Source: Bacteroidota bacterium (lineage in GTDB: Bacteria; Bacteroidota; Bacteroidia; Bacteroidales; B39-G9). Taken from it: a stretch of 46,503 bases of DNA. The notes beneath the pieces were generated by a model, which was given only the letters and a program-made list of their open reading frames with translations, had not been told where the DNA came from and did not search any database. The stretch spans positions 1-46,503 of the forward strand of contig JADFUR010000112.1 in the NCBI GenBank assembly GCA_015222055.1, read 5' to 3'. The translations under genes were made by a program, and so were the position numbers. Below are positions 12,625 through 25,636 of the stretch, piece after piece. Position 1 is the stretch's first letter. Each line of letters starts with the position of its first letter.

Positions 12625-15600
12625 ATGAAATTTATTGGTGATTTTCATATCCACTCCCACTATTCTCGTGCGACAAGCAAGAAACTCACACCTGAATATC
12701 TCGACTATTGGGCAAGAATAAAAGGTATAAGCGTTGTTGGTACAGGCGATTTTTCTCACCCGGGCTGGCTAAATGAGTTGAAAGAAAAATTAGAACCGGC
12801 AGAGCAAGGACTATATAAACTTAAAGATGAATTTAAGATAAACGATCAATTAATTAATAATGATAGACGCAATGCAAAAGTACGATTTCTGTTAACGTCA
12901 GAAATTAGTAATATTTATAAAAAAACAGGCAAAGTGCGTAAGGTTCATAATTTGATTTTTGCCCCTGACTTTGATACTGTTGAAAAATTTCAGAACAATT
13001 TACAGAATTTAAATTTTAATATTACTTCTGACGGAAGACCAATTCTAGGATTAGATTCTCGCGATTTGCTCGATTTGGTTTTAAATATTTCTGATGAATG
13101 TTTTTTTATTCCTGCTCACATTTGGACACCCTGGTTTTCGGCTCTTGGTTCAAAATCAGGTTTCGACACTATTGTTGAATGTTTCGGCGATTTATCTGAC
13201 CATATTTATGCTGTAGAAACTGGCTTGTCAACCGATCCGCCTATGAACTGGATGTGTAGCTTTCTTGATAAATATACACTTATTTCAAATTCTGATGCTC
13301 ATTCGCCTGAAAAGCTCGGAAGAAATGCAAATTTGTTTAATACCGAACTTTCTTATAACAGTATTATTGATGCTATAAAAACAGGCAATAAAAATACTTT
13401 TCTCGGGACAATAGATATGTATCCCCAAGAAGGGAAATATCATTACGATGGTCACCGCAAATGTAACGTTTGTTGGAATCCCGTTGAAACTATCATGCAT
13501 AATAATATTTGTTCTGTTTGTGGGAAAAAAGTAACAGTGGGAGTTACAAATAGAATTGTTCAATTATCAGACAGAGTTGATATTAATGAGAGACCTAATA
13601 AACTGCCTTTTTATTCAATTATACCTTTAAAAGAAATTATTTCTGAAATTGCTGGTGTTGGTTCAAGTTCTAAACAAGTTACAAAAACTTATAATTCAAT
13701 AATTAATAAAGCAGGAAGCGAGTTAGACATTTTGCTTAATCTTTCAATTGAAGAAATTAAAAAATCTGCCGGCGAGCAATTAGCAATTGCCATAAAACGT
13801 ATGCGAAATAATGAGGTTGAGGTAAGCGAAGGCTTTGACGGAGAATATGGTACAATTAAAGTTTTTGGCAAGGGCGAGATACAAAATATTGGTTCAAATA
13901 GTTTGTTTTCTGATAACTCAAATTTTGAAAAACCTGTTAATAAAAGAAAATTGTTGAATTTTGATTTGAAAGAATATAAATCGTTGAGAGAAAAAAACCA
14001 TAATAACGAAAATAAAGATGAGGAAGATAATAACTCACAAAAGATTAATACTGAAAATTTTATCAACATTTTAAATAAAGAACAACTTTTGGCTGCCGAG
14101 CATTTTAATGGACCGGCATTAATTATTGCGGGACCCGGAACTGGAAAAACAAGAGTTCTTACGAGCCGAATTGCAAACCTAATAATGAATAAGTCTATTG
14201 CTCCGGAAAATATTCTTGCCGTAACTTTTACCAATAAGGCTGCAAGTGAAATGCTAAGCAGATTAAAAAAACTTCTTATTACTAAAATTGATATTGCCAA
14301 ACTTAATATATCAACTTTTCATGAATTCGGATTGTCTGTACTTAAAAAATATTATGAATACACAGGCAGAGAAAAAAAATTTTCAATAATTGATGAGGAA
14401 GACAAGAATTTGATTTTAAAAAACAAACTAAAATGTGGTGCAAATCAAGTTAAAAAAATTTCAAAAGCAATTACCGAACTCAAGCAGACGTTAAAAAAAA
14501 CATATGATATTGAAGATAAACTTTTGTGTGAAATTTTTGAAAAATATCAAGACACACTTAAGGAATTAAATGTTTTTGACCTCGATGATTTAAATTATTT
14601 TCCATATTTATTGTTTAATGAGTTTACTGATGTGAATGATTTTTATAAGGCACAATTTAAGTTTATTATGATTGATGAGTATCAGGACATTAATTTTTCT
14701 CAGTATAATATGATTAAGAAAATAATTAATGAAGATAATTCCAACTTATGTGTTATAGGCGACCCAAATCAGTCTATATACAGCTTTCGTGGTTCTGATG
14801 TGAGATTTATTAAGAAATTTACCGATGATTTTAAGCAGGCAAAAATATTTGAGCTTAATAAGAGTTATCGTTGTTCAAATAATATTATTAAGGCATCTAA
14901 AGATATTATACAAAGTGAAGATTCGTCAGGTTCTTTTCTTCACGGAATTAATAAAGGTGTAAAAATTCGCATTAACGAACATCAAACAGACAGGAGTGAA
15001 GCTGAGTTTGTTGCTCGCACAATTGAAGCAATGATTGGCGGTTTGCGTTTTTTTTCAATGGATAGCGGCATAACCACAGGTGATGATGATAACGAACAAA
15101 CACTTTCCGATTTTGTTGTTCTTTGTAGGTTGAAAAGCGAAATGGATGAATTGCAACAAGCCTTTAAAAATCACAGCATTCCATATCAACTTATTGGCGA
15201 GAAACCTTTTTTTAAGATAGAACCTATAAAATCAATTATTGATATTATGAGTTTTTGCTATAATGAAGGAAATGTTTTTTTGAGGGATAAGATAATAGCA
15301 CAGAATAAAATTTCTGTGTCAAATTTGAACGATATTAAGGTTTTGATAAAATATAAACCTGTAAAAAAAGCAATTGAGATAATCGTTAATAATTTTTTTC
15401 AAGACAAGAAAAATGATTTTAAAAACGAGATAAATAGGCTTGTTGATTTGAGTGCTGATTATGATAATGGTTTTGAGAAATTTTTAAGGTTTGCTACTCT
15501 CGGGGTTGGTACAGATACTTATAATGCGGATATCGAAAATGTAACATTAATGACTTTGCATGCGGCAAAAGGACTTGAGTTTAAAACAGTTTTTATTATA

Positions 15601-15870
15601 GGCTGTGAAGATGGATTATTACCATATTCTCTTTTTGAAAATCATAAAGCTGATACTAATGAAGAAAAACGATTGCTCTATGTTGGTATGACACGAGCTA
15701 AAAAACATTTATTTTTGTCAAATGCGAGACGTCGGTTTATTAAGGGCAGAGAATATGTTTTACCAAGAAGTCCATTCATTAATAATATTGAAAAAGAATT
15801 AGTAGATTTTTCACAAATTCAGTTTAAGAAGAAATCAAAAGAAGATGATACACAGCTTAGTTTGTTTTGA
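12625..15870 (+). CDS. EndoQ-like PHP nuclease fused to UvrD/Rep-type helicase
   Basis: A 1081-residue fusion. Residues about 1-420 match the endonuclease Q / TIGR00375 family: a PHP-type metal site (DFHIHSHYS at 6-14, TGDFSHPGW, IPAHIWTPW, SNSDAHS near 221-227), a four-Cys zinc ribbon (CNVC near 279-282 and CSVC near 297-300), and the family's C-terminal GFDGEYG segment. After a charged linker, residues about 485-1081 form a superfamily 1A helicase: Walker A AGPGTGKT near 503-510, TFTNKAA, Walker B/DExx MIDEYQD near 682-688, GDPNQSIYSFRGSD, TLHAAKGLEF near 975, and LLYVGMTRAKK near 1016. EndoQ cleaves 5' of deaminated bases and abasic sites. The fusion would couple lesion incision to unwinding. 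The gene is a single unit with no partner nearby. Both halves keep their key motifs. Confidence 0.92.
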   Translation: MKFIGDFHIHSHYSRATSKKLTPEYLDYWARIKGISVVGTGDFSHPGWLNELKEKLEPAEQGLYKLKDEFKINDQLINNDRRNAKVRFLLTSEISNIYKKTGKVRKVHNLIFAPDFDTVEKFQNNLQNLNFNITSDGRPILGLDSRDLLDLVLNISDECFFIPAHIWTPWFSALGSKSGFDTIVECFGDLSDHIYAVETGLSTDPPMNWMCSFLDKYTLISNSDAHSPEKLGRNANLFNTELSYNSIIDAIKTGNKNTFLGTIDMYPQEGKYHYDGHRKCNVCWNPVETIMHNNICSVCGKKVTVGVTNRIVQLSDRVDINERPNKLPFYSIIPLKEIISEIAGVGSSSKQVTKTYNSIINKAGSELDILLNLSIEEIKKSAGEQLAIAIKRMRNNEVEVSEGFDGEYGTIKVFGKGEIQNIGSNSLFSDNSNFEKPVNKRKLLNFDLKEYKSLREKNHNNENKDEEDNNSQKINTENFINILNKEQLLAAEHFNGPALIIAGPGTGKTRVLTSRIANLIMNKSIAPENILAVTFTNKAASEMLSRLKKLLITKIDIAKLNISTFHEFGLSVLKKYYEYTGREKKFSIIDEEDKNLILKNKLKCGANQVKKISKAITELKQTLKKTYDIEDKLLCEIFEKYQDTLKELNVFDLDDLNYFPYLLFNEFTDVNDFYKAQFKFIMIDEYQDINFSQYNMIKKIINEDNSNLCVIGDPNQSIYSFRGSDVRFIKKFTDDFKQAKIFELNKSYRCSNNIIKASKDIIQSEDSSGSFLHGINKGVKIRINEHQTDRSEAEFVARTIEAMIGGLRFFSMDSGITTGDDDNEQTLSDFVVLCRLKSEMDELQQAFKNHSIPYQLIGEKPFFKIEPIKSIIDIMSFCYNEGNVFLRDKIIAQNKISVSNLNDIKVLIKYKPVKKAIEIIVNNFFQDKKNDFKNEINRLVDLSADYDNGFEKFLRFATLGVGTDTYNADIENVTLMTLHAAKGLEFKTVFIIGCEDGLLPYSLFENHKADTNEEKRLLYVGMTRAKKHLFLSNARRRFIKGREYVLPRSPFINNIEKELVDFSQIQFKKKSKEDDTQLSLF

Positions 15871-15890
15871 AAGGTTATAATTAGTCTGTG

Positions 15891-16089
15891 TCATTTTTTC
15901 ATAGTAGTAATAATAATCATTTTAATTTTTTTCCACGAAAATCCCATGAAATAAAACGATTGTGAAAATTTTTGTTTTCTCAAGTTATAGTCTATCCATT
16001 CCGGTTCTTGATTGTATATTATGTTTGCAGATAAGCAAATTAATAAAAAAGAAACAAGTATTTTTTTTAGGGTGATTTTTTTACTTCAT
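15891..16089 (-). pseudogene. Remnant of a small exported protein gene
   Basis: On the minus strand, a frame starting near ATG at 16089 shifts by one base within an A7 tract. It then encodes a signal-peptide-like stretch (ILVSFLLICLSANIIYNQ) followed by PEWIDYNLRKQKFSQSFYF. That is the sort of mature start seen in small exported Bacteroidota proteins, of which the rest is missing. It stops after about 60 codons. It is probably the decayed 5' end of a longer gene; the family is not firmly identified. Confidence 0.4.
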
Positions 16090-16153
16090 TGAGACTTTAA
16101 ATCGTTTTTTTTATCAAATAAAGGTAAGGTGTTTCTATTTATTTAAAAATATA

Positions 16154-16185
16154 TTTGCATTATGAACATAAGTTCATTATCTTTG
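16154..16185 (+). promoter_or_regulatory. Bacteroidota-type promoter for the DUF134/NifX cluster
   Basis: A -33 TTTG (16154-16157) and a -7 TATCTTTG (16178-16185, consensus TAnnTTTG) are separated by exactly 20 bases, the expected spacing. The predicted transcript would begin about 60 bases upstream of the start codon at 16253. A perfect palindrome fills the end of the spacer. Confidence 0.75.
16162..16177. promoter_or_regulatory. Putative operator in the promoter spacer
   Basis: ATGAACATAAGTTCAT has perfect 6-bp arms (ATGAAC/GTTCAT) around ATAA. It lies between the -33 and -7 boxes, abutting the latter, where a bound repressor would block RNA polymerase. The first gene downstream encodes a DUF134 helix-turn-helix protein, so autoregulation is a reasonable inference. 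Confidence 0.65.
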
Positions 16186-16252
16186 TGCTATAATATTAAG
16201 ATTAAATTTTATTAACAAGAAACTTTAAACTTTAAACTTTATACTCAAACAC

Positions 16253-16726
16253 ATGGCCAGACCCGAAAAAAATAGAATTGTAAATAATCCACCACTGTTT
16301 TCAGAGTTTAAACCAGTTGGTGTGCCAAGTAACTCTTTAATTCAGGTTTTGCTTACTCTTGATGAGTATGAGGCTTTTCGTTTGGCAGATTATCTTGGCA
16401 TGTCTCAATTAGAGGCTGCTCAGGAGATGGAAGTGTCGCGACCGACTTTTACGAGACTGATTGAAAAAGCAAGAAAAAAAATTGCAGATTTTATAGTTCA
16501 AGGAAAGGTTTTGTCTATTCAAGGCGGAAACATTCATTTTAGAAGAAATATTATTAAATGTTTAGATTGTGGACATATGTTCCAAATGAATATGGAAGAT
16601 TCGCTTTCTGAGTGTCCTGATTGTGGGTCTAAAAATTTAATGAATCTTGCAGGTGGTTTTGGTCATGGTCAGTGTTGTGCAAATAGAAATAGAGGAAGAA
16701 GAGGATATCGTGGAGGAAGACAATAA
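16253..16726 (+). CDS. DUF134-family DNA-binding protein
   Basis: A 157-residue member of the DUF134 (COG1342) family of predicted DNA-binding proteins. It shows the conserved start MARPEKNRIV and FKPVGVP. Next comes a sigma-region-4-like helix-turn-helix (LTLDEYEAFRLADYLGMSQLEAA...VSRPTFTRLIEKARKKIADF, about residues 38-83). Then follow a GG-x-[HFY] beta element, and a C-terminal four-Cys zinc ribbon (CLDCGHMF...CPDCGS) with a Gly/Arg-rich tail. DUF134 genes are typically next to NifX-like and MinD-like genes in anaerobes, as here. A well-formed promoter with a palindrome in the spacer precedes it. It is likely the local regulator, perhaps metal- or redox-responsive through its cysteines (inference). 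Confidence 0.9.
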   Translation: MARPEKNRIVNNPPLFSEFKPVGVPSNSLIQVLLTLDEYEAFRLADYLGMSQLEAAQEMEVSRPTFTRLIEKARKKIADFIVQGKVLSIQGGNIHFRRNIIKCLDCGHMFQMNMEDSLSECPDCGSKNLMNLAGGFGHGQCCANRNRGRRGYRGGRQ

Positions 16727-16733
16727 GTTTTGA

Positions 16734-16821
16734 TTGTCATTTGTAGTCATTCATTTTTTAAAATCATGCAATGATATTGAAACTAAAGGCACGAGCTTAA
16801 CTTCGTTAAATAAAATGACAA
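16734..16821. repeat. Short palindromic intergenic element
   Basis: Inverted ends TTGTCATTT (16734-16742) and AAATGACAA (16813-16821) enclose a non-coding 70-base core. Similar GTCATTTG/AATGAC words recur near 3145 and 22118-22160, so this may be one of a family of small mobile or structural repeats. Confidence 0.45.
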
Positions 16822-16901
16822 ATAGTAAAATGCAATTTAGAACAGAGAGCAGTATAAGGAAATTTTAAGAATAATAAATTTTGTATTAATATTAATTAAA
16901 A

Positions 16902-16908
16902 AAGGAGG
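16902..16908 (+). promoter_or_regulatory. Strong Shine-Dalgarno AAGGAGG before the DUF5320 gene
   Basis: AAGGAGG, full complementarity to the 16S rRNA 3' end, five bases before the ATG at 16914. Bacteroidota genes rarely use such sites, and the neighbours in this window show little of the kind. It fixes the start codon and suggests either strong translation or acquisition from another phylum. Confidence 0.85.
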
Positions 16909-16913
16909 TTATC

Positions 16914-17255
16914 ATGCCAAGAGGTGATAGAACAGGACCTTTAGGAAATGGTCCTATGACAGGAAGACAAATGGGTTATTGCAATGGTAATGACCAAGTT
17001 GGAAACACTACAAGATTCGGCGGCTTTGGAAGAGGCTTTGGCTTTGGAAGAGGCTCCGGTTTTGGAAGAGGCTTTGGACGTGGTTCAGGCTATGGAAGAG
17101 GTGCTGGTTTTGCTAATGGAAACTATAATGATAATAGTGTTCCAGATGTATCTGAAAAGACAATGATTGAAAATGAGATTAATTCTATTAAAGATCAGAT
17201 GTTATTTTTAGAAAAAAGGCTTTCTGAAATTAGTAATAAAGATAAGGAAAGCTAG
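16914..17255 (+). CDS. DUF5320-family Gly-rich protein
   Basis: A 113-residue protein with the family's hallmark start MPRGDRTGPLGNGPMTGRQMGYC. A low-complexity Gly/Phe/Arg section (about residues 36-65, repeats of GFGRGxGFGRG) follows, then a C-terminal helix with coiled-coil character (IENEINSIKDQMLFLEKRLSEI, about 82-106). DUF5320 proteins are nearly always found beside NifX-like and MinD-ferredoxin ATPase genes in anaerobes, and their function is unknown. The start is fixed by a perfect AAGGAGG. A hairpin terminator follows directly, so this gene may make an abundant short transcript. A high-scoring alternative frame in the same stretch is an artefact of the repeats. Confidence 0.88.
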   Translation: MPRGDRTGPLGNGPMTGRQMGYCNGNDQVGNTTRFGGFGRGFGFGRGSGFGRGFGRGSGYGRGAGFANGNYNDNSVPDVSEKTMIENEINSIKDQMLFLEKRLSEISNKDKES

Positions 17256-17263
17256 ATTTATTT

Positions 17264-17291
17264 AAGTAGGACATTTTTTTATGTCCTACTT
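17264..17291 (+). terminator. Terminator after DUF5320 gene
   Basis: Perfect 11-bp inverted repeat AAGTAGGACAT (17264-17274) and ATGTCCTACTT (17281-17291), with a T-only loop. There is no long T run after the stem, so termination may be partial. Confidence 0.7.
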
Positions 17292-17321
17292 ATCATTATA
17301 CTTAAATAAGAAAACTATAAA

Positions 17322-17543
17322 ATGAAAAGTTTTAGAAATTCAGGAAATCCTGGAAGTGGAAGAGGGCAAGGTAGTGGAGGAGGTCGTGGTCGCAACAACG
17401 GCGGAGCTTTTGGCACAGGAGGCTTTTGTGTTTGCACTCAATGTGGAGAAAAAATTCCTCACCAACAAGGTGTTAAATGTACATCTGTGAAATGTCCTAA
17501 ATGTGGGCATGTTATGATAAGAGAAGAATTACTTAATAAGTAA
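17322..17543 (+). CDS. Gly/Arg-rich zinc-ribbon protein
   Basis: A 73-residue protein with a disordered GSGRGQGSGGGRGRNNGG-type N-terminal half and a C-terminal four-Cys ribbon (CTQCGEKIPHQQG...CTSVKCPKCGHVMIRE). The CxxC pairs (CTQC, CPKC) should bind zinc or iron. Small proteins of this form accompany the NifX/MinD cluster in many anaerobes, with no known function. The Gly-rich half resembles that of the upstream DUF5320 protein, hinting at a shared binding partner or origin (inference). Not a known enzyme. Confidence 0.82.
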   Translation: MKSFRNSGNPGSGRGQGSGGGRGRNNGGAFGTGGFCVCTQCGEKIPHQQGVKCTSVKCPKCGHVMIREELLNK

Positions 17544-17563
17544 GATTATAAATTATGTGATTT

Positions 17564-17653
17564 AATGTATCCTCACAAAAATGTTGATACTGCTATTATA
17601 GTATATGACTGCCATTAATTTTTTTGTATGCTATTTATTTGAGGGGATACATT
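17564..17653 (+). other. Long-range hairpin before the first nifX-like gene
   Basis: AATGTATCCTCA (17564-17575) pairs, with a two-base bulge, to TGAGGGGATACATT (17640-17653). An inner ATACT/AGTAT pair lies near 17585-17605. The 90-base structure fills most of the space between the zinc-ribbon gene and the nifX-like gene. It could be a repeat element, a processing site or an attenuator. No known riboswitch motif was recognised. Confidence 0.45.
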
Positions 17654-17680
17654 TTTATTTAATAATTAAAAATAATTAAT

Positions 17681-18016
17681 ATGAAATTTGCAATACCAAC
17701 AGTTAACGGGAAATTATGTGAACATTTCGGACATTGTGAAAAGTTTGCAATTATTGAAACAAACGAGAATGAAATTATTTCAGAGAATTTTATAGCACCA
17801 CCTTCTGATCATCAACCTGGAGTTTATCCTCAGTTTTTGGCTCAGCTTAAAGTTGATGTAATAATTTCGGGAGGTATGGGACAAAAAGCTATAGATGCTT
17901 TTAATGAAAATAATATTGAAGTTTTTGCAGGAGTTAATTCAGATTCCCCTGTTAAATTGGTTGTAAATTATTTAAACAATCAATTAGCTGGAGGAATGAA
18001 TTTATGCGATCATTAA
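17681..18016 (+). CDS. NifX/ORP-like iron-molybdenum cofactor-binding family protein
   Basis: A 111-residue single-domain protein of the dinitrogenase iron-molybdenum cofactor (NifX/NifB C-terminal/NafY) family, with an RNase-H-like fold. Family features are the start MKFAIPTVNGKLCEHFGHCEKFAI, the PPSDHQPGVYPQFL segment, and the strand VDVIISGGMGQKAIDAF. The HFGHC motif (Cys and His) is a plausible metal-cluster site. No nif structural genes are nearby, so a nitrogenase role is unlikely. By context with the MinD-type ATPases it resembles the orange-protein (ORP) subunits of Desulfovibrio, which carry a Mo-Cu-S cluster. It is followed 30 bases later by the first ATPase. Confidence 0.9.
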   Translation: MKFAIPTVNGKLCEHFGHCEKFAIIETNENEIISENFIAPPSDHQPGVYPQFLAQLKVDVIISGGMGQKAIDAFNENNIEVFAGVNSDSPVKLVVNYLNNQLAGGMNLCDH

Positions 18017-18046
18017 AATAAAAATTGTAATTTAAAATTAAAATAC

Positions 18047-18913
18047 GTGAAAATAGCAATTGCAAGTGGCAAAGGCGGTACAGGAAAGACAACTCTTTCA
18101 GTAAACCTGGCTGCTTTTATCTCAGAAAACGACAAAGTTGTTTTGTGTGATCTTGATGTTGAAGAACCAAATTCAGGATTATTTATTAAAGGCGAACTTA
18201 TTCATGAAGAAGAAAAATTTAAAATGGTTCCTAAATGGGTGCCCGATAAATGCACTTTATGTGGATTATGTCAAGAAGTATGTAATTTTAATGCGGTAAT
18301 AAAATTAGAAAAACAAATAATGGTTTTTCCTGACTTGTGCCACACTTGTTATGCATGTTCTGAATTATGTCCTGAAGAAGCATTACCAATGGTTCCTGTA
18401 AAAATGGGAGAGTTGAAGCATTTTCAATTAAATAACATCTCATTTATTGAGAGCCATCTCGACGTTGGTCGCGAACAAGCAGTTCCCCTAATTTCTCAAA
18501 CAATTGAATATGTTGAGGCAAATTTTGACAAGGATACAATTAAATTATACGATTCGCCTCCGGGAACATCCTGTCCAGTTATTGAAGCTACAAAGGAAGT
18601 CGATTTTGTAATTTTAATTACAGAGCCTACGCCTTTTGGATTTCATGACGTTAAGTTGGCAATTGAAACAGTGAAAAAAATGCACAAAAAATTTGGGGTG
18701 GTTATTAATCGTTATGGAATTGGTAACGATGATGTTTTGAAATATTGCAAAGATAATGATATTCCGCTATTGGCTAAAATTCCAAATGACCGTTTTATTG
18801 CCGAGTTGTATTCAAGCGGAGAATTAATTTATACCAAAGTTCCGGAAGTAAAAAAACAATTAAAAAATATTTACGATTATATTTTAAAACTAAAAGAAAA
18901 CAACAAGGTATGA
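18047..18913 (+). CDS. MinD-superfamily ATPase with inserted 2x[4Fe-4S] ferredoxin domain (1)
   Basis: A 288-residue P-loop ATPase of COG1149. A deviant Walker A SGKGGTGKTT (7-16) and CDLDVEEPN (Walker A' region) are followed by a ferredoxin insert with two clusters: Cys69/72/75/79 and Cys98/101/104/108. The switch region DSPPGTSCPV then follows and the C-terminal half continues the MinD fold (ILITEPTPFGFHDVKLA). The start is GTG at 18047, the only start that includes the whole Walker A strand. The stop overlaps the next gene's ATG by four bases (ATGA). The twin-ATPase arrangement with NifX-like proteins parallels the ORP complex genes. Expected role: ATP-dependent metallocluster assembly or a redox-coupled positioning complex (inference). 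Confidence 0.93.
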   Translation: MKIAIASGKGGTGKTTLSVNLAAFISENDKVVLCDLDVEEPNSGLFIKGELIHEEEKFKMVPKWVPDKCTLCGLCQEVCNFNAVIKLEKQIMVFPDLCHTCYACSELCPEEALPMVPVKMGELKHFQLNNISFIESHLDVGREQAVPLISQTIEYVEANFDKDTIKLYDSPPGTSCPVIEATKEVDFVILITEPTPFGFHDVKLAIETVKKMHKKFGVVINRYGIGNDDVLKYCKDNDIPLLAKIPNDRFIAELYSSGELIYTKVPEVKKQLKNIYDYILKLKENNKV

Positions 18914-19788
18914 AAGAGATTGTAGTTATTTCAGGTAAAGGAGGAACAGGAAAAACATCCATCACTGCATCTATTGCATATCTTGGAGGTAAAGATATTG
19001 TTGTAGCCGATTGTGATGTTGATGCTGCTGACATGCATCTTCTTATGCAACCGGATTTTGAAAAATCTGAAGATTTTTATAGTGGCGAAATTGCAGAAAT
19101 TAATCAAGATGAGTGTATTAAATGTGGTAAATGTAAAGATGTTTGTCGTTTTAATGCAATTCCTATTATTAATAAACAATATACAATTAATTCGTTGAAT
19201 TGTGAAGGTTGCGGTTATTGTGCAAGAATTTGTCCTGCAAATGCAATTACAATGATTGAACAGAATGTTGGGAAAGTACATATTTCTAATACTAAAGCTG
19301 GCAATATTATGGTTCATGCAGAATTAGGTATTGGTGCAGATAATTCAGGTAAACTTGTTGCTAAAGTGAAAAAAGAGGCAAAGTTATTAGCAGAAAAAAC
19401 GAATAAAGAATTTATTGTTATTGATGGTTCTCCAGGAGTTGGATGTCCTGTTGTTTCTTCCCTTTCAGGTGCAGATTTTGTGATTTTAGTTACTGAACCT
19501 ACGGTAGCAGGTTTGCATGATTTAGAGCGCGTTTATCAATTGGTGAAAAAATTTAATATAAAGGCAGGGTGCATAATTAACAAGGCTGACCTTAATGGTA
19601 ATGTGGCAAAGGAAATTGAAGAATTTCTTAAGAAAGAGAATGTAGCCAATATTGCAAATTTGCCTTATGATGAGACTTTTACAAAAGCAATGACTGTTGG
19701 ACAAACAATTGTTGAGTATGGAGAAAGTAATTTAAAGAATATTGTTATAGAAAGTTGGGATAAAATAAAAGAGTTAGTAACGAATTAA
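18910..19788 (+). CDS. MinD-superfamily ATPase with inserted 2x[4Fe-4S] ferredoxin domain (2)
   Basis: A 292-residue paralogue of the upstream protein. It has Walker A SGKGGTGKTS, ADCDVDAADMHLL, ferredoxin Cys residues at the same positions (69/72/75/79 and 98/101/104/108), DGSPGVGCPVVSSL, and LVTEPTVAGLHDLERV. The two ATPases are similar in length and layout but clearly diverged, as expected for a heterodimer. The overlap with the preceding gene implies translational coupling and fixed stoichiometry. Both keep intact nucleotide and cluster motifs. Confidence 0.93.
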   Translation: MKEIVVISGKGGTGKTSITASIAYLGGKDIVVADCDVDAADMHLLMQPDFEKSEDFYSGEIAEINQDECIKCGKCKDVCRFNAIPIINKQYTINSLNCEGCGYCARICPANAITMIEQNVGKVHISNTKAGNIMVHAELGIGADNSGKLVAKVKKEAKLLAEKTNKEFIVIDGSPGVGCPVVSSLSGADFVILVTEPTVAGLHDLERVYQLVKKFNIKAGCIINKADLNGNVAKEIEEFLKKENVANIANLPYDETFTKAMTVGQTIVEYGESNLKNIVIESWDKIKELVTN

Positions 19789-19796
19789 TAATTGAG

Positions 19797-20033
19797 TCCA
19801 CTCAGAAAAGTCGCTAAGCGGTTAATTTTATAAAAAGATTAAAAGCTAATAACTTGTACGTTAATTTATTAGAAATTCGCTAAACGACTATAAATTGATA
19901 AGTTTAGTTTTCAGAGTAGTCTCATAATTAAGAAGATTAATTGTAAATTTGTAAACTTACAGTTTTTTCGGATTTGTAATCCGTAAGGTAAATAAACAAA
20001 GCAAACAAAACTTACGGATTATAAATCCGTAAG
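19797..20033. repeat. Palindromic repeats between the ATPase and second nifX-like gene
   Basis: Two elements fill this 300-base gap. ACTCAGAAAA (about 19800) and TTTTCAGAGT (about 19908) form ends of an imperfect 120-base palindrome containing CGCTAAGCG and CGCTAAACG words. To its right, CGGATT/AATCCG (19969-19983) and CTTACGGATT/AATCCGTAAG (20011-20033) make two small hairpins. A solitary CTTACGGATT appears again at about 21125. They look like dispersed intergenic repeats and may also act as terminators or mRNA stabilisers. No gene is seen here. Confidence 0.6.
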
Positions 20034-20088
20034 AGCGTAAATACAAAGAGAAATAATTAAATATCAACATAATATAAAAAATAAAAAA

Positions 20089-20427
20089 ATGAAGATTGCA
20101 TTTACAACAAAAGGAACAGAATGGGATTCAATGATGGATCCACGTTTTGGAAGAACAGAATTTATTTTAATGTTTGATGAGGAAAAAGACGAATTAGTTA
20201 ATTTTGATAATAGATCTATTGAAGGCGAAGCTCATGGTGCAGGACCAAAAACAGCTCAGCAATTATTAGAGATGAAACCAGATGTTTTAATTACAGGAAA
20301 CGGACCTGGTGGAAATGCTTCTTCAGTTCTTGAACAATCAGGAACAAAAATTTTTGTTGGAGCTGGTCAAATGACTGCTAAAAAAGCTTATGATGCTTAT
20401 AAAAAGAATGAATTAAAGGCGTTTTAA
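20089..20427 (+). CDS. Second NifX/ORP-like family protein
   Basis: A 112-residue member of the same dinitrogenase-cofactor family as the 17681 gene but from a different branch. It has MKIAFTTKGTEWDSMMDPRFGRTEFILMFD, the GAGPKTAQQLLEMKPDVLITGNGPGGNASSVL stretch, and KIFVGAG. It has no cysteine at all, unlike its neighbour, so any cluster must be held by other residues or by partner contacts. It lies 300 bases after the second ATPase, past palindromic repeats. The pairing of one Cys/His-containing and one Cys-free NifX-like protein suggests different roles within one complex (inference). Confidence 0.9.
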   Translation: MKIAFTTKGTEWDSMMDPRFGRTEFILMFDEEKDELVNFDNRSIEGEAHGAGPKTAQQLLEMKPDVLITGNGPGGNASSVLEQSGTKIFVGAGQMTAKKAYDAYKKNELKAF

Positions 20428-20456
20428 ATAATATAGAAGAGAATATTGTTTCACAA

Positions 20457-20485
20457 TCATTGCGAGGATGTATGACGAAGCAATA
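20457..20485. repeat. Dispersed CATTGCGAGG repeat, copy 1
   Basis: TCATTGCGAGG ... GACGAAGCAAT, with ATTGC/GCAAT arms. One of three copies in the window (others at 21068 and 44613). Short hairpin repeats of this kind are common between genes in many bacteria. Confidence 0.85.
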
Positions 20486-20547
20486 CTTAAATTACAGACA
20501 CGCAAGGTTTTATTTATAATAATCCTTGCGGTTTTTCTATTATTAAA

Positions 20548-21042
20548 TTGACAAGTGATTTGAAAAATATTATTAAACCAATTGGAATAATTTATTCTCA
20601 GAATAAAACGCCTAAAGGCACCCCAATACAATCATCTACAGCAAAAAATATAAGTGGAGTAGTAGAGGTATATCCCGAATTTGTTGAAGGTTTAAAAGAT
20701 CTTGATGGATTCTCTCACATAATTTTGTTGTATTATTTTCATTTATGTAAAGAAACAAAATTAGTATTAAAACCGTTCTTAGATGATGAGTTTCATGGTG
20801 TTTTTGCAACTCGGGCTCCATGCAGACCTAACCCTATTGGACTTTCTTATGCTAAAATAGAGAAAATTCAAGGGAATAAAATTTTTGTAACAGGATTAGA
20901 TGTATTAGATGAAACACCACTTATTGACATTAAACCTTATATTCCTGAATTTGACTACAATGAAGTTGAGAAAATTGGTTGGGTGAAAAAAAATGTAAAT
21001 AAATTGCCTGAAGCTAAAGATGATGGCAGGTTCGCAAAATAG
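20548..21042 (+). CDS. trmO: tRNA (N6-threonylcarbamoyladenosine(37)-N6)-methyltransferase TrmO-like
   Basis: A 164-residue TsaA/YaeB/TrmO-family protein that methylates t6A37 in certain tRNAs using S-adenosylmethionine. Recognised from the start (KPIGIIYSQNKTPKGTPIQ), GLKDLDGFSHIILLYYFH, the signature ATRAPCRPNPIGLS and DVLDETPLIDIKPYIPEFD. It is short, with the catalytic beta-barrel domain only and no C-terminal extension, as in archaeal and many anaerobe versions. The start appears to be TTG at 20548; no in-frame ATG precedes the conserved region. TrmO-family genes recur next to NifX/MinD clusters in anaerobes, so this link may reflect more than chance, or the local protein may have another substrate (inference). 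Confidence 0.85.
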   Translation: MTSDLKNIIKPIGIIYSQNKTPKGTPIQSSTAKNISGVVEVYPEFVEGLKDLDGFSHIILLYYFHLCKETKLVLKPFLDDEFHGVFATRAPCRPNPIGLSYAKIEKIQGNKIFVTGLDVLDETPLIDIKPYIPEFDYNEVEKIGWVKKNVNKLPEAKDDGRFAK

Positions 21043-21067
21043 AATTTAAATAATTTATCTTTTCTCG

Positions 21068-21096
21068 TCATTGCGAGGAAGTATGACGAAGCAATC
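21068..21096. repeat. Dispersed CATTGCGAGG repeat, copy 2
   Basis: TCATTGCGAGG ... GACGAAGCAAT, differing at one internal base from the copy at 20457; arms ATTGC/GCAAT. Confidence 0.85.
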
Positions 21097-21177
21097 CTTT
21101 GATTTTCATATTGTAATTTTGATTCTTACGGATTTGTTTTAATTTTAATAATAAATGAATTATTACACATATATAAT

Positions 21178-22023
21178 ATGAAGACTTATTTAGAATGTTT
21201 GCCTTGTTTTATGCAACAGGCTCTTCGGGCAGGTAGAATTGCAACCAATGATGAAAAAAAGTTAAAAGACTTATTAAGTAGCGTTGGTGAAATGATTAAA
21301 GATATTCCTATGCAGAATACTCCACCTGAAACTGGAGATGCAATTTATAGAAAAGTAAGAGAGATTACAGGCGTAAATGACCCATATAAAGAAATTAAAA
21401 AACAAAATATTGCCGAGACTTTAGCTTTGTATCCTGAAATGAAAAATATTATTAACAGTTCGGAAGATAAAATTTTAACTGCTATTAGATTTGCAATTGC
21501 AGGGAATGTTATTGATTTTGGTGTTAACAAAGAGTTTGATATTCAACAAGAAGTAAAAAATAATTTAGAAAAAGAATTTGCAATTTTTGACTACCATAAA
21601 TTTTTACAACACCTTGAAAAGGCAAATTCAATTCTTTATATTGGAGATAATGCAGGAGAAACTGTTTTTGATAAAATTCTTATTGAAGAATTAGGCAAAC
21701 AAGTAACTTTTGTAGTGCGCGATATTCCTGTTATTAATGATGCAACAAAAGAAGATGCAATTGCTTCAGGTATTGATGAAGTGGCAGAAATTATTTCTTC
21801 AGGAACTTCAGCCCCGGGAACAATCTTAAATTTATGTAATGACGATTTTCTCGAGAGATTTAAAAATGCAGATTTGGTTATAAGTAAAGGTCAAGGAAAT
21901 TATGAAGGACTGTCTAATGAAGACCGACCCGTGTTTTTTCTGCTAAAGGCAAAATGCCCAATTATTGCAAATGATATAGGTGTAAAAGAAAACGATATTA
22001 TTTTAAAAGGAATTAACATTTAA
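21178..22023 (+). CDS. DUF89/ARMT1-like metal-dependent phosphatase family protein
   Basis: A 281-residue protein of the DUF89 family (COG1578, subfamily I), whose characterised eukaryotic members are metal-dependent metabolite damage-control phosphatases. Features are the N-terminal CLPCFMQQALRAGR (conserved CxxC), AGNVIDFG, the metal-site motif ILYIGDNAGETVFDK (Asp, Asn), VRDIPVINDAT, and the late SKGQGNYEGL motif. The CxxC-type N-terminus is typical of the prokaryotic subfamily found in anaerobes. It follows trmO with a 135-base spacer containing a repeat. Its natural substrate is unknown. Confidence 0.88.
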   Translation: MKTYLECLPCFMQQALRAGRIATNDEKKLKDLLSSVGEMIKDIPMQNTPPETGDAIYRKVREITGVNDPYKEIKKQNIAETLALYPEMKNIINSSEDKILTAIRFAIAGNVIDFGVNKEFDIQQEVKNNLEKEFAIFDYHKFLQHLEKANSILYIGDNAGETVFDKILIEELGKQVTFVVRDIPVINDATKEDAIASGIDEVAEIISSGTSAPGTILNLCNDDFLERFKNADLVISKGQGNYEGLSNEDRPVFFLLKAKCPIIANDIGVKENDIILKGINI

Positions 22024-22193
22024 TAAAAGTTGCGATTTTGAAATTTGCTTTTGTTCTTTCGTAATTTTAAATTAGAAAGCAATGTCACCAATACACTTTG
22101 CTAAGGAACAAGTTTAATGACAACTAATGACGTGAAACAAATGGCAATTAATGACAAATAATAATTAATTTAGAAATAAAATACATAATAATA

Positions 22194-22385
22194 ATGAATT
22201 GTAAGTGGTATAATGTTTGTCCGATGAAATATTTTTCAGAGCAAGGGAAGCTTGAGAAGAGGTGGATAGAAAATTATTGCAAAGGCAATTGGAAGGATTG
22301 TATCCGTTTTCAAAAAGAAGAAAAAGGTATTTATCACCCCGACAATATGCTCCCAAATGGCGAGATTGATAAAAAATTAAAATAA
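22194..22385 (+). CDS. Small conserved cysteine-containing protein
   Basis: A 63-residue protein (MNCKWYNVCPMKYF...IENYCKGNWKDCIRFQ...YHPDNMLPNGEID) with four Cys in a C-x5-C ... C-x5-C pattern that could hold a metal ion or Fe-S cluster. Short proteins with this layout are widespread in anaerobic bacteria and archaea and have no established function. It lies between the DUF89 and CGGC genes on the same strand. The frame is the whole conserved unit; the ATG is preceded by AT-rich leader only. Confidence 0.78.
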   Translation: MNCKWYNVCPMKYFSEQGKLEKRWIENYCKGNWKDCIRFQKEEKGIYHPDNMLPNGEIDKKLK

Positions 22386-22472
22386 TATGATTTTATAATA
22401 TATAATATAGATTATATTAAATAAATTTGTCGGTAATTATAAAATATAAATCTGATAAAAACATAAATTCCT

Positions 22473-22922
22473 ATGAAAAATAGTGTAAAAATTGGAATTA
22501 TTATTTGCGACAGGTATAATACTTGTGCCGGAGGAAAATGCTTTAGGTCAATAAAAAATCGTGAAGGAGCTTTCGATATTTATGGCGAAGATAAAGAATT
22601 GGAAATTGTTGGTTACACTACATGTGGTGGCTGTCCTGGAGGAAATATTGAATACGCTTGTGATGAAATGATAAAAAATGGAGTGCAGAATATTCACCTT
22701 GCAACAGGTCTTATTGTTGGATATCCTCCATGTCCTCACATTAATTATTTTAAAGATTTTATTGAAAAAAAATATGGACTTAAAGTGGTAATAGGAACAC
22801 ATCCAATACCTCAAAAATATTTAAATGTTCACACAAAGTTGGGAACATGGAATACTCCCGAATGGCAAGAAATTATTAAGCCAACAATATCAGACGAAAA
22901 AACACGTCTTTCTTACGACTAA
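22473..22922 (+). CDS. CGGC-domain protein
   Basis: A 149-residue protein of the CGGC-domain family (PF08821), predicted to bind metal through conserved Cys residues. Visible are IIICDRYNTCAGGKCFRSI (Cys-rich N-terminus), the family motif YTTCGGCPGGNIEY, and GYPPCPHI. The family occurs mostly in anaerobes and is uncharacterised. It is the last intact gene before a run of pseudogenes and fits the Fe-S/metal theme of the preceding cluster. No frameshift is seen. Confidence 0.9.
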   Translation: MKNSVKIGIIICDRYNTCAGGKCFRSIKNREGAFDIYGEDKELEIVGYTTCGGCPGGNIEYACDEMIKNGVQNIHLATGLIVGYPPCPHINYFKDFIEKKYGLKVVIGTHPIPQKYLNVHTKLGTWNTPEWQEIIKPTISDEKTRLSYD

Positions 22923-22940
22923 TTATTTAAAAAAAATATT

Positions 22941-23286
22941 GTGATTATAAACGATGACATTAAAGATTTTTTTGAAAAAGTACAGATAATGGCTTTTTCA
23001 ACTTCCGATAAAAACGGTATTCCTAACGTAGTGCCAATTGGATAAAAAAAAGATTATTAATAACGACTCCATATTGACTATTGATGCTTATCAAAACAAA
23101 ACAAAAGAAAATATTTTGCAAAACCCAAATGTGGCAATAGCAATGTGGAAAGATTTGAAGATGGGAAAGAATGGATTTTGCAATTTAAGCCAAACAAAAT
23201 AGTTAAAGGTGTCATTTTAATTAAGGTGAAGAGATATTTAGTGTAACACCAAATTATGAGAAAGCAGGGAAAAGAATTTAGAATCT
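22941..23286 (+). pseudogene. Decayed pyridoxamine-5'-phosphate-oxidase-family protein
   Basis: A GTG-started frame reads DDIKDFFEKVQIMAFSTSDKNGIPNVVPIG and then stops. After one base shift it continues with INNDSILTIDAYQNKTKENILQNPNVAIAMWKDL, and in a third frame with EWILQFKPNKIVKG and a short further segment. This order (N-terminal ATSDKDGxPNVVPxG, then NPNVAIAxW) matches flavin-binding split-barrel proteins of the pyridoxamine-phosphate-oxidase-like group. At least two frameshifts and a stop make it non-functional. Confidence 0.8.
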
Positions 23287-23395
23287 ATCTTGAATAAAGT
23301 TGATAAGAATTATTTCAATTTTAAATATTTGATTTTATATAGAAAATATTCAATAAGCAACCTACAACAATCAATAATCAAGTAAAAAGCAGAAA

Positions 23396-23721
23396 ATGAA
23401 AAAAATGATTTAGAAGATAGATTTATTGATTTTGCAATAAGAATAAGTAATGTAGTTGATGAAATTGACGATTCAAAATTAGGAACTAATATAGCAGGTC
23501 AAATAATTAGAAGCGGTAGTTCGCCGACATTAAATTATGGGGAAGATCAAGGTGCAGAATCGAGAGAAGATTTTATTCATAAAATGAAAATAATTTTAAA
23601 AGAGCTAAAAGAAAGCCGAATTTGCTTAAAAATTATAGAACGGAAACCATTAATTACAAACATAAAGAAATTAGCTCCAATTATGAAAGAAACAGAAAAG
23701 TTAATAGCTATATATTTATAA
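23396..23721 (+). pseudogene. Frameshifted four-helix-bundle (23S rRNA IVP-like) protein
   Basis: The sequence encodes NDLEDRFIDFAIRISNVVDE, then GTNIAGQIIRSGSSPTLNYG, then AESREDFIHKMKIILKELKE and ESRICLKIIE, the full S23/23S-rRNA-intervening-sequence four-helix-bundle fold (about 105 residues). The ATG at 23396 is out of frame because the following A tract has seven A; eight (or five) would restore MK(K)NDLEDRF. The remainder is intact, so the break is recent, a sequencing error, or suppressed by slippage on the A run. The protein is not inside a 23S rRNA gene here. Confidence 0.8.
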
Positions 23722-24078
23722 AAGTATTGAAACTGCAAAGGTTAATATGCAGAAAGAATGAAAATTGAATATTGTATGTTGAGTGTTGAATATTTTTTTT
23801 CTATTATGAGTTGTTATTTTATAAATTTACACTTAAAAACATGCATAAATTATTATAATTAATTTGTAATTATATATAACTTTACAAATTGCTGAATTAT
23901 CGGGATTTCGCTAAAGTTTAATTTTATAAATTTTTGACATTGCGAATTATAAATATTGAAAAAATACCTGTCAGGTTTGTTTTATAATAGTTACAGGTAT
24001 TTTTTATCTTTCTGTCAAACAATTAGAGAAATCTGTCAGGTGTTGGTAATATTAAACATTTAACTTTAAACTTATATT
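23722..24078. other. Intergenic region with terminator
   Basis: No gene is recognised in this 357-base stretch. It holds a hairpin terminator (23963-24007) and a short TTTCGCTAAAGTTTAATTTTATAA word near 23908, similar to one within the palindrome at about 19813. Confidence 0.55.
23963..24007 (+). terminator. Hairpin terminator
   Basis: AATACCTGT (23963-23971) and ACAGGTATT (23993-24001) form a perfect 9-bp stem followed by a T run. Confidence 0.8.
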
Positions 24079-25017
24079 ATGTATAAATATATTTTTGGTC
24101 CAGTACCCTCACGTCGTTTAGGAATGTCTTTGGGTCTTGATATGGTACCTCATAAAGTATGCTCGCTTAATTGCGTTTACTGCGAATGTGGTCGCACAAC
24201 AAACTTAACAATAGAGAGAAAAGAATATGTTCCCTACGATGGTGTAATATCCGAATTGGATGATTTCATGAAAAATAATCCTGCTCCTGATTTTATTACT
24301 TTTTCAGGTTCAGGTGAACCAACTCTAAATTCTCGTATTGGTGATATTATTAATTATATAAAATTAAATTATGCAAATATTCCTGTTGCTGTTTTAACAA
24401 ATGGAACATTGTTTAGCGATAAAGAAGTAAGAAAAGATTTGCTTAAAGCAGATGTTATTCTCCCTTCGTTAGATGCTGCTTCTAGTTTATCTTTTACAAA
24501 AATTAACAGACCTTTTCATTCAATAAATATTGATGATTACATTAAAGGGGTGATAGATTTTAGTAATGAGTTTAAAGGCAGAATATGGCTCGAAGTATTT
24601 GTTATTCCTGGTATAAATGATAATAACGCTGATTTGGATTTATTGAAAAATATTATTAAGAAAATTAATCCCGAAGTAATTCAACTTAACACTTTAGACC
24701 GCCCAGGAGTTGTTGATGATATAAGAGCCGCAACAAAAATTGAGTTGCAAAGCATTGTTGACTATTGGGCTCTCCCTAATGTTGAGATAATTGCTGCAGT
24801 AGCAAAACGAAAGGATGTAAAATCTTTCCGAAAAGATATTGAATCGGCAATACTTGAAACAATTTTCAGAAGACCATGCACTCTCGAAGATATGGCCGAA
24901 ATTCTTGGATTGCATATAAATGAGATTAACAAATATCTTGATACTTTAGAGGCAGACGGAAAAATTGAAGTTGTGAGACAAGAAAGAGGGCTGTTTTATC
25001 AGGTTAAAAATAAATAA
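24079..25017 (+). CDS. Radical SAM protein (COG0731-like) with C-terminal winged-helix domain
   Basis: A 312-residue radical SAM enzyme. The cluster-binding motif is CSLNCVYCECG (Cys-x3-Cys-x2-Cys, near residues 28-36), preceded by the subfamily start YIFGPVPSRRLGMSLGLDM. The GSGEP SAM-contact motif (near 76), ILPSLDAA, and PGIND follow. Residues about 245-312 look like a winged-helix domain (RPCTLEDMAEILGLHINEINKYLDTLEADGKIEVVRQERG). Proteins of this type are common in anaerobes and their substrate is unknown. It stands alone between terminators. The similarity to wyosine-type and other tRNA-modifying SAM proteins is only at family level. Confidence 0.9.
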   Translation: MYKYIFGPVPSRRLGMSLGLDMVPHKVCSLNCVYCECGRTTNLTIERKEYVPYDGVISELDDFMKNNPAPDFITFSGSGEPTLNSRIGDIINYIKLNYANIPVAVLTNGTLFSDKEVRKDLLKADVILPSLDAASSLSFTKINRPFHSINIDDYIKGVIDFSNEFKGRIWLEVFVIPGINDNNADLDLLKNIIKKINPEVIQLNTLDRPGVVDDIRAATKIELQSIVDYWALPNVEIIAAVAKRKDVKSFRKDIESAILETIFRRPCTLEDMAEILGLHINEINKYLDTLEADGKIEVVRQERGLFYQVKNK

Positions 25018-25040
25018 TTGATAATAATTAATTACAAAAA

Positions 25041-25072
25041 AATGACATGTCAAAAGGCATGTCATTTTTTTA
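25041..25072 (+). terminator. Terminator after the radical SAM gene
   Basis: Perfect 9-bp stem AATGACATG (25041-25049) and CATGTCATT (25058-25066) followed by T5. Confidence 0.93.
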
Positions 25073-25137
25073 TTCCGCAAGCTAACATTTTGTATAAACC
25101 AAATAAAAATATACAAATGTGACGGAGTTATACCAAT

Positions 25138-25586: not shown

Positions 25587-25636
25587 AGTGGATTTATTTT
25601 TGATAATATAAAATAAAAATTCGGGTAATTAAATTC

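Follow-up and report, generated by a model that had tools for sequence, protein, structure and literature searches.

The 46,503-nucleotide contig JADFUR010000112.1 (contig C85; hereafter the window) of the Bacteroidota genome GCA_015222055.1, which is 3.75 Mb in size and 98.56% complete, carries seven genes at 16253-20427, all on the + strand (gene calls and Pfam scan), encoding a DUF134 (UPF0251) protein, a DUF5320 protein, a Gly/Arg-rich zinc ribbon, two NifX-like proteins (NifX1 and NifX2) and two MinD-type ATPases (MinD1 and MinD2). This gene set had been proposed in a first-pass annotation of the DNA, and all seven members are present in the span. Here we describe a 16-bp palindrome in front of the DUF134 gene and its predicted recognition code as a new finding; no prior description of a DUF134 operator was found in the open-access literature searched by family names. 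Sequence comparison makes it very probable that DUF134 represses its own gene and recognizes DNA by a code that can be read. The cluster itself is probably, with some reserve, an anaerobe-type module of the orange protein (ORP) kind for the handling of metal-sulfide clusters, in which MrpORP is split and which would be under local DUF134 control.

The predicted DUF134 operator and its promoter

The DUF134 gene (16253-16726, + strand) encodes a predicted autorepressor of 157 aa (PF02001, 83.5 bits compared to a gathering score of 27), composed of a DeoR-like helix-turn-helix (HTH) domain with its recognition helix at approximately residues 62-70, a four-cysteine zinc ribbon (C103, C106, C121, and C124) and a basic Gly/Arg tail, while a C-terminal sugar-phosphate effector domain is absent from the protein. 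The family was found in both bacteria and archaea among the control genomes. Upstream of the gene, positions 16154-16185 read TTTGCA-TT-ATGAACATAAGTTCAT-TATCTTTG, consisting of a -33 element (TTTGCA, 16154-16159, + strand), the predicted DUF134 operator (16162-16177, a palindrome without strand), and a -7 element of the TAnnTTTG type (16178-16185, + strand) that directly abuts the operator. The -33 element is assigned to what we take to be a Bacteroidota-type promoter. The palindrome fills the promoter spacer and thus occupies the position of a repressor. A similar layout was seen in a set of 56 sites, made up of 49 locus sites with at most one mismatch and seven from further regions; a TTG motif is located 7 or 8 nt before the operator (30 and 25 sites, respectively, the motif classes overlapping), and in 34 sites the palindrome is followed by TAnnTTTG without any gap. 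A generic promoter and terminator scan, which returned 35 promoter-like sites compared to 25.6 in shuffled sequences, was not used.

Relatives of the cluster were collected using MinD2 as query. Of 400 candidate stretches from GTDB genomes, 362 encode a relative, and the 80 best (66-91% identical) were retained together with their flanks. Across phyla, the operator is conserved before DUF134 or DUF5320. Allowing one mismatch, ATGMACATAWGTKCAT occurs at 49 sites (28 exact) in the 0.97 Mb of loci compared to 0.67 expected from Markov sequence (three replicates), and every one of the 49 is close to where a cluster gene begins, in most cases the first gene. A search for the exact operator in the genomes of 50 of the 80 relatives (approximately 157 Mb), chosen for being rich in loci with upstream sequence, identified it in 31 genomes and its reversed control in none, and 32 of the 34 distinct exact sites precede DUF134 or DUF5320. 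The genome of the window holds a single exact operator, the one before DUF134, as well as one-mismatch sites on contigs C53 and C89, the former 5' of a carbamate-kinase-like gene (by eye). In an even sample of 247 Bacteroidota genomes, including that of the window, the exact operator was present in four and the reversed control in one; the four are the window's genome, G142 with two sites just before its DUF134 gene, and two genomes without a DUF134 over the cut-off.

The operator was also observed with DUF134 genes outside the cluster. DUF134 over the cut-off is held by 65 of the 247 sampled genomes; 20 upstream regions and seven further DUF134 regions were taken. Other DUF134 families of the phylum carry variant operators (ATGAGCATATGCTCAT, TTGTGCATATGCACAA, TTTAGCATATGCTAAT, and others), which were found in 15 of the 20 sampled genes, including all 12 outside family f18. 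Four of the seven further regions (G142, G293, G060, and G187) contain the operator with at most two mismatches and three (G121, G069, and G152) do not, related palindromes being present in G069 and G152. A census covering the 84 of 85 DUF134 genes with enough upstream sequence (L103, a duplicate of L016, still included) identified a 16-bp palindrome within approximately 130 bp upstream of 65 genes and a CATATG-type core in 48, compared to 8.5 and 0.55%, respectively, of 4000 random control windows. Moreover, DUF134 lies apart from the cluster in 11 of 19 genomes searched for this arrangement, and seven of these detached genes keep the operator with at most two mismatches (exact in G004, G010, G011, and G012; one or two mismatches in G003, G005, and G014), while a cluster copy with at most one mismatch is present in 10 of the 11 genomes (not in G014).

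Several observations nevertheless weigh against DUF134 as the autorepressor acting at this site. The exact operator is missing from 19 of the 50 cluster genomes, although several of them have it with one or two mismatches, and the remaining two exact sites are located 5' of a rubrerythrin gene (L152, position 585) and of a Cupin_7-cytochrome operon (L153). No operator was recognized by our rule on core, base 2 and symmetry for 18 of the 84 DUF134 genes, and the five sampled genes of family f18 (G065, G070, G122, G169, and G176a) show none. Among the detached genes, that of G007 has only a three-mismatch operator, and the operator is missing before those of G006, G008, and G009. G017 and G018 have DUF134 downstream of the cluster, and no operator within two mismatches precedes it there. 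Finally, repression rather than activation is suggested by the position of the site. The rubrerythrin and Cupin_7 sites may possibly belong to a wider DUF134 regulon.

We also considered that the palindrome could belong to another regulator, e.g., an ArsR-type repressor, with DUF134 merely travelling along. Six clusters with the site before DUF5320 and DUF134 elsewhere in the genome would fit this explanation, as would the three detached genes without a site. On the other hand, the site accompanies DUF134 in genomes without a close MinD2 (G142, G293, and G060) and is absent at both loci of two searched genomes without DUF134 (L027 and L039). In addition, three residues of the DUF134 recognition helix rank first for three bases of the operator, and DeoR, which shares the helix motif, also binds this half-site, as detailed below. 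Hence, we regard another regulator as very improbable.

Two further observations concern these loci. In L153, operators are located at 629 and 854, one exact and one with a single mismatch, before the Cupin_7 and cytochrome operon. Three genomes (L158, 5588-7358; L161, 3671-5868; L154, 7371-9327) have a methionine gamma-lyase-like gene next to their detached DUF134, a label given at scores below the curated cut-offs and for L154 by sequence only; possibly, this neighbourhood constitutes a link to sulfide.

Proposed recognition code and comparison with DeoR

The operators used for covariation with the DUF134 protein were selected by the rule mentioned above, which is blind to the identity of bases 3-5. 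Of the 84 DUF134 genes, from which L103 had already been removed, 66 have such an operator; L016 was dropped as not credible, giving 65 pairs that were compared over 129 protein columns. The best column for base 3 was residue 68 (score 0.72, next 0.30), for base 4 residue 64 (0.31, next 0.13), and for base 5 residue 67 (0.324, next 0.289), and all three residues are inside the recognition helix. Half-site counts over the 66 genes (L016 included) showed R68 together with G in 122 of 124 and N68 with T in 8 of 8 cases. At residue 64, proline goes with A (46/50), alanine with A (16/16), glycine with T (6/6), and glutamine with either A or G (4 and 6), and at residue 67, threonine or serine goes with A (90/98) and glycine or glutamine with G (33/34).

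The code is not without weaknesses. Only 31 of the 50 half-sites with S64 have C, and shared ancestry explains part of the covariation, most for base 5, since other columns score near residue 67 for this base. Among the genes carrying P or S at residue 64 as well as T or S at residue 67 (n = 47), the residue (P or S) and the base (A or C) agree in 42, and each of the two has changed nine times on the tree. A comparison of independent sister pairs points in the same direction (on average 2.7 in agreement, 0 against and 2.3 undecided), but the pairs are too few for significance (median p 0.25).

When the DUF134 A2 profile was compared to the sequences of the PDB, only two matched at E ≤ 0.001, namely 7BHY (1.7e-5) and 8R7Y, both named deoxyribonucleoside regulator, which we infer to be the Bacillus subtilis DeoR of PMC11229326. 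The sequence match proved a better guide than the predicted structure, as the DUF134 model (pLDDT 73.6) gave sigma region 4 domains as its top matches (Z approximately 8, near background) and DeoR was not among the PDB structure matches listed. In the helix alignment, ISRPTVSRLL of 7BHY and 8R7Y is paired with VSRPTFTRLI of DUF134, and the spacing of two arginines (R34 and R39) makes R39 of DeoR the counterpart of DUF134 R68. DeoR binds the operator ATTGAACAAAATTTCAATTACCAATTTACATATGTTCAA, and in a complex at 3.7 Å its R39 was reported to contact G4 and T14 (PMC11229326). G4 of the DeoR half-site ATTGAACA corresponds to base 3 of the DUF134 operator, and the G-to-C spacing between half-sites is 11 bp in both. 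By this analogy, the R68-G3 pairing of DUF134 appears to match the reported low-resolution Arg39-G4 contact of DeoR, and the code had been derived before the DeoR contacts came into the analysis. However, the authors state that contacts at 3.7 Å cannot be seen with high confidence, and in an earlier 15-bp complex R39 of one chain touches the backbone only (PMC11229326).

DUF134 is thus like DeoR, a member of the SorC family, in its HTH homology, helix motif (SRPTxSR), TGAAC half-site and 11-bp spacing, the latter as in OL18. In contrast to DeoR, it lacks a sugar-phosphate effector domain and instead has the zinc ribbon and Gly/Arg tail, and while the DeoR operator is 39 bp long and bound by a tetramer, DUF134 usually has one palindrome in the promoter spacer. 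As strongly supported by these comparisons, a DUF134 dimer would bind ATGAACATAAGTTCAT between the -33 and -7 elements, block RNA polymerase and repress the operon together with its own gene. The zinc ribbon and the Cys/His tail may then sense altered metal, sulfide or redox conditions, upon which DUF134 would be released. With its operator predicted and a code in accord with a DNA-bound relative, DUF134 is no longer an unknown but a regulator that can be tested; the code may allow prediction of operators from the protein sequence alone, and the DUF134 regulon would mark genes that belong to the ORP/NifX metal-sulfide machinery.

The NifX and MinD-ferredoxin module

Downstream of DUF134, DUF5320 (16914-17255, + strand; Pfam, 87.2 bits) is a basic protein (pI 9.3) with an FGRG-type stretch of 32 residues that holds 16 Gly, 5 Arg and 8 aromatic residues. 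It is followed by the Gly/Arg-rich zinc ribbon of 73 aa (17322-17543, + strand; pI 9.7), which gave sub-threshold zinc-ribbon matches only in Pfam, but in which six Cys and one His are invariant across an alignment of 48 sequences. Together with DUF134, these proteins are basic (predicted pI 9.2-9.7), while acidic values (4.8-5.4) were obtained for the NifX and MinD proteins. In Methanosarcina mazei, proteins of the DUF134 and DUF5320 families have been listed as possible G-quadruplex binders without known function (PMC7565180).

Both NifX proteins contain the Nitro_FeMo-Co domain (PF02579; 64.9 bits for NifX1 and 38.5 bits for NifX2). NifX1 (17681-18016, + strand; 111 aa, pI 4.8) is of the MrpORP Di-Nase type, matching the Di-Nase part of the MrpORP model (positions 265-365) with 114.8 bits, and its residues H15, H18, C19, H44, C109, and H111, conserved in 95-100% of 44 sequences, may plausibly form a metal site. 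NifX2 (20089-20427, + strand; 112 aa, pI 5.2) is of the orange-protein type. It is without Cys, has an invariant H49 in 74 sequences, and aligns over residues 2-104 with the solved orange protein 2WFB (E 2.1e-8, 37.4 bits), other structure matches being 1RDU (1.9e-11) and MTH1175 (1EO1, 4e-6). Several inverted repeats are found at 19809-20033 in the 300-nt gap before NifX2, perhaps as a processing or termination region that sets NifX2 apart. A second NifX protein of the MrpORP Di-Nase type is encoded beside SiaC and DUF6272 genes elsewhere in the genome of the window (1495-1833 of L087, G000:C32), and a congeneric relative has a like protein in a similar gene setting (1889-2227 of L175, G002:C296).

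MinD1 (18047-18913, + strand, GTG start) and MinD2 (18910-19788, + strand) both match CbiA/ParA and Fer4 in Pfam, i.e., each is a MinD-type ATPase with an inserted 2[4Fe-4S] ferredoxin, and the homology between the two extends through most of the sequence (hhalign probability 100, 260 columns). The identical Cys spacing noted at first pass was confirmed, with C-x2-C-x2-C-x3-C present twice at the same positions of both proteins (69/72/75/79 and 98/101/104/108), although the spacing is less special than it might seem, the repeated motif being the ordinary 2[4Fe-4S] ferredoxin pattern. The ferredoxin cysteines are 99-100% conserved in 72 MinD1 and 81 MinD2 sequences. Additional conserved cysteines are C176 (switch II) and C234 in MinD1, and C35, C179 (switch II), and C221 in MinD2. 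The MinD2 start overlaps the MinD1 stop by 4 nt. An overlap of exactly this length is shared by 51 of 72 pairs, and in 62 the two genes are no more than 12 nt apart, pointing to coupled translation of two proteins that pair 1:1.

The survey of gene neighbourhoods confirmed that the cluster is coherent and not a chance arrangement, as its gene order recurs in relatives of nine named phyla and the scattered occurrence of the genes that would have spoken against coherence did not appear. The first-pass annotation was thus right in placing the system in a Bacteroidota genome but too narrow in scope. The 80 relatives comprise 43 Bacteroidota, 14 Cloacimonadota, seven Spirochaetota, four Calditrichota, two Chlorobiota, two Fidelibacterota, one each of Ignavibacteriota, Acidobacteriota, and Chlamydiota, and five unplaced, counts that follow the record titles and may include binning errors since nearly all are metagenome-assembled genomes. 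The nearest named relatives by MinD2 are a Bacteroidales metagenome-assembled genome (91% identical) and an Ancylomarina (89%), in keeping with the assignment to Bacteroidota. Among the 44 loci with at least 4 kb upstream of MinD2, MinD1 was found in all 44, the zinc ribbon in 34, DUF5320 and DUF134 in 31 each, and NifX1 in 28 (within 4 kb on the same strand), and NifX2 was present in 50 of the 51 loci with at least 3 kb downstream. Within Bacteroidota, the cassette is widespread but patchy, with a MinD2 match at E ≤ 1e-60 in seven of the 247 sampled genomes, that of the window being one of the seven.

ORP loci and MrpORP are already known (PMC6345978, PMC3897727), and the parallel that had been drawn to the Desulfovibrio orange-protein locus holds at the sequence level, i.e., for NifX2 and 2WFB, NifX1 and the Di-Nase domain, and the ATPase pair. 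Like the ORP complex of Desulfovibrio vulgaris (Orp3, Orp4, Orp5, Orp8, and MrpORP), the cluster has two adjacent MinD-like ATPases with two [4Fe-4S] motifs each, an ORP-type (Orp8-like) NifX, corresponding to NifX2, and the Di-Nase domain of MrpORP, corresponding to NifX1; Orp3 and Orp4 are likened here by their description as a pair of MinD-like ATPases with two ferredoxin motifs each (PMC6345978). Unlike that complex, the cluster includes apparently extra Gly/Arg-rich proteins, DUF5320 and the zinc ribbon, and it appears to have DUF134 and a promoter-spacer operator in place of the sigma-54 promoters of the orp operons. For Orp5, a small [2Fe-2S] protein, the zinc ribbon with its six invariant Cys and one His was considered as a possible counterpart, and the ORP protein of the Desulfovibrio locus is a Mo-Cu protein. 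The promoter is of the TTTG/TAnnTTTG type, and no sigma-54 activator was found among the called cluster genes, neither a sigma-54 promoter scan nor a genome-wide activator search having been made. MrpORP is split as well. A canonical two-domain fusion was ruled out, as no match above the 450-bit cut-off exists in the genome, where a separate Mrp (261 bits) is encoded elsewhere besides the Di-Nase proteins. In a few relatives, an Mrp/NUBPL-type ATPase precedes MinD1 (L008, L042, and L080, by Pfam) or is located downstream (L019, by sequence), and the copy of L042 scores 320 bits with the NTPase part of the MrpORP model. Both halves of MrpORP are then near each other in one cluster, which provides a fusion-based link of NifX1 to an Fe-S carrier ATPase.

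Could the module instead serve in cell division or polar positioning, a role put forward for the ORP complex of Desulfovibrio? The ATPases have a fold like that of MinD (MinD structures at Z about 24), MrpORP has a polar localization, and Orp3 and Orp4 have a MinD-like C-terminal amphipathic helix (PMC6345978). However, the division role is itself only a hypothesis in PMC4672049, and the role of the ORP machinery in Desulfovibrio is called putative (PMC6345978, PMC4672049). Both ATPases are far below the cut-off for bacterial MinD (TIGR01968, 212.9 bits), scoring 33.0 and 44.8 bits, and no division gene was recognized among 12 modelled families and the neighbour clusters, which were judged mostly by eye and without a dedicated division-family search. 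Since some relatives add NifU or Mrp genes to the cluster, metal-sulfur cluster handling is favored over cell division; a NifU_N-type scaffold is encoded in eight of 81 loci, in several approximately 1.3 kb before MinD2 and thus between NifX1 and MinD1. It should be noted that NifU and Mrp are found in a minority of loci only. We consider a cell-division role extremely unlikely and, with no supporting neighbour recognized, rejected it; this part of the earlier parallel is disfavored, as the split MrpORP would tie NifX-type proteins to Fe-S carrier ATPases.

Under the preferred reading as a metal-sulfide handling module, MinD1 and MinD2 would form an ATP-dependent heterodimer, as suggested by gene overlap, homology and neighbours. 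Electrons or clusters from their ferredoxin inserts would serve for loading or remodelling a metal-sulfide cluster carried by NifX1 and NifX2, and DUF5320 and the zinc ribbon, both basic and Gly/Arg-rich, could hold or buffer anionic metal-sulfide species. It counts against this reading that metal binding, the ATPase partnership and the function of the Gly/Arg proteins are all predictions from sequence, and that the fold of MinD2 does not appear to decide its function, the predicted model (pLDDT 86.8) scoring about alike with ApbC (Z 24.2), MinD (24.1) and NifH (22.6). Structural sorting of MinD2 into one of these families was consequently abandoned, all Z scores being about 22-24.

The NifH score relates to an alternative in which the MinD1-MinD2 heterodimer acts as a NifH/BchL-like ATP-gated reductase, pushing low-potential electrons from its ferredoxin domains to a partner cluster or substrate. 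In NifH, a Cys after the Walker-B-type Asp ligates the cluster, and there are two Cys per subunit. Both ATPases of the window have a Cys seven residues after this Asp (D169-C176 and D172-C179), the same offset as in DVLGDVVC of two NifH-family proteins and absent in the Mrp proteins of four relatives, and NifH and BchL structures match the MinD2 model at Z about 22 to 22.6. Still, only one of the two NifH cysteines is matched, the hhalign alignment of MinD1 and MinD2 to a NifH-type protein covers the P-loop region alone, and MinD and ApbC score as high with the model. Nor is there a NifD/K-like partner, as PF00148 gave 0 matches across the whole genome; this agrees with the initial claim that nitrogenase genes are lacking, rules out a nitrogenase remnant, and sets the locus apart from the NifX/NafY/NifB carriers of nitrogenase clusters with which it shares the PF02579 domain. 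An ATP-gated reductase thus seems quite unlikely to us.

Another alternative is thioferrate storage as known for IssA of Pyrococcus furiosus (PMC5524996), but in trans, in which the NifX proteins nucleate a thioferrate polymer, DUF5320 and the zinc ribbon replace the IssA tail, and the MinD pair mobilizes Fe and S. By description, IssA combines a NifX-type domain with a cationic Gly/aromatic tail (15 Gly, 14 aromatic and 7 cationic residues in 70) and is made only with abundant iron and sulfide (PMC5524996), and in Methanococcus voltae grown on pyrite the levels of two IssA homologues increase (PMC8516115). The same chemistry would be split in the window, where NifX1 and NifX2 are acidic and lack a C-terminal basic Gly/aromatic tail of their own, as do some members of the IssA clade (PMC5524996), whereas the Gly-rich part is on separate basic proteins and two ATPases are attached. 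The resemblance is one of composition, and the Gly/Arg stretches may bind nucleic acid instead, in line with the G-quadruplex listing (PMC7565180), so that we consider such storage rather unlikely. Combining both lines, we tentatively and with considerable doubt suggest that DUF134 founds a family of metal-sulfide-responsive repressors with a three-residue code, controlling a split IssA/ORP, ferritin-like Fe-S reserve of unrelated anaerobes. If so, the NifX proteins would assemble a metal-sulfide polymer, the Gly/Arg proteins would hold it in trans, and the MinD-ferredoxin heterodimer would load or mobilize it with ATP.

Neighbouring genes and other features of the window

Besides NifU and Mrp, several gene classes recur in the 81 loci, including a flavoprotein disulfide reductase (26 loci), an ArsP_2 heavy-metal exporter (16), a metallo-beta-lactamase fold protein (16), Cupin_7 (14), a glyoxalase (12), a methyltransferase (11, by eye), and a Cys/Met PLP enzyme (9, by eye); the flavoprotein, exporter, lactamase, cupin, glyoxalase and NifU classes were named from one scanned representative each. 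In the window, the cluster is followed on the + strand by an ARMT1-like (DUF89) protein (21178-22023), a CGGC-domain protein (22473-22922), and a radical SAM protein (24079-25017), which recur downstream in 13, 13, and 10, respectively, of the 37 loci with at least 6 kb of downstream sequence. The first-pass annotation had mentioned neither these recurring genes nor the operator and promoter at 16154-16185.

No Rfam family reached its gathering score in 15800-25700, making an RNA element a rejected candidate for this region. A short interspersed repeat, ATTGCGAGGANGTATGACGAAGCAAT, occurs twice between genes (20459-20484 and 21070-21095), compared to 0 expected in shuffles. Two broken frames were assigned by eye, a pyridoxamine-phosphate-oxidase-type gene at 22941-23300 and a four-helix 23S-insertion-type gene at 23380-23720. 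Upstream of the cluster, 12625-15870 encodes a protein of 1081 aa that is a UvrD-type helicase from residue 483 on. Its N-terminal part, which had no Pfam match, we presume to be PHP-like.

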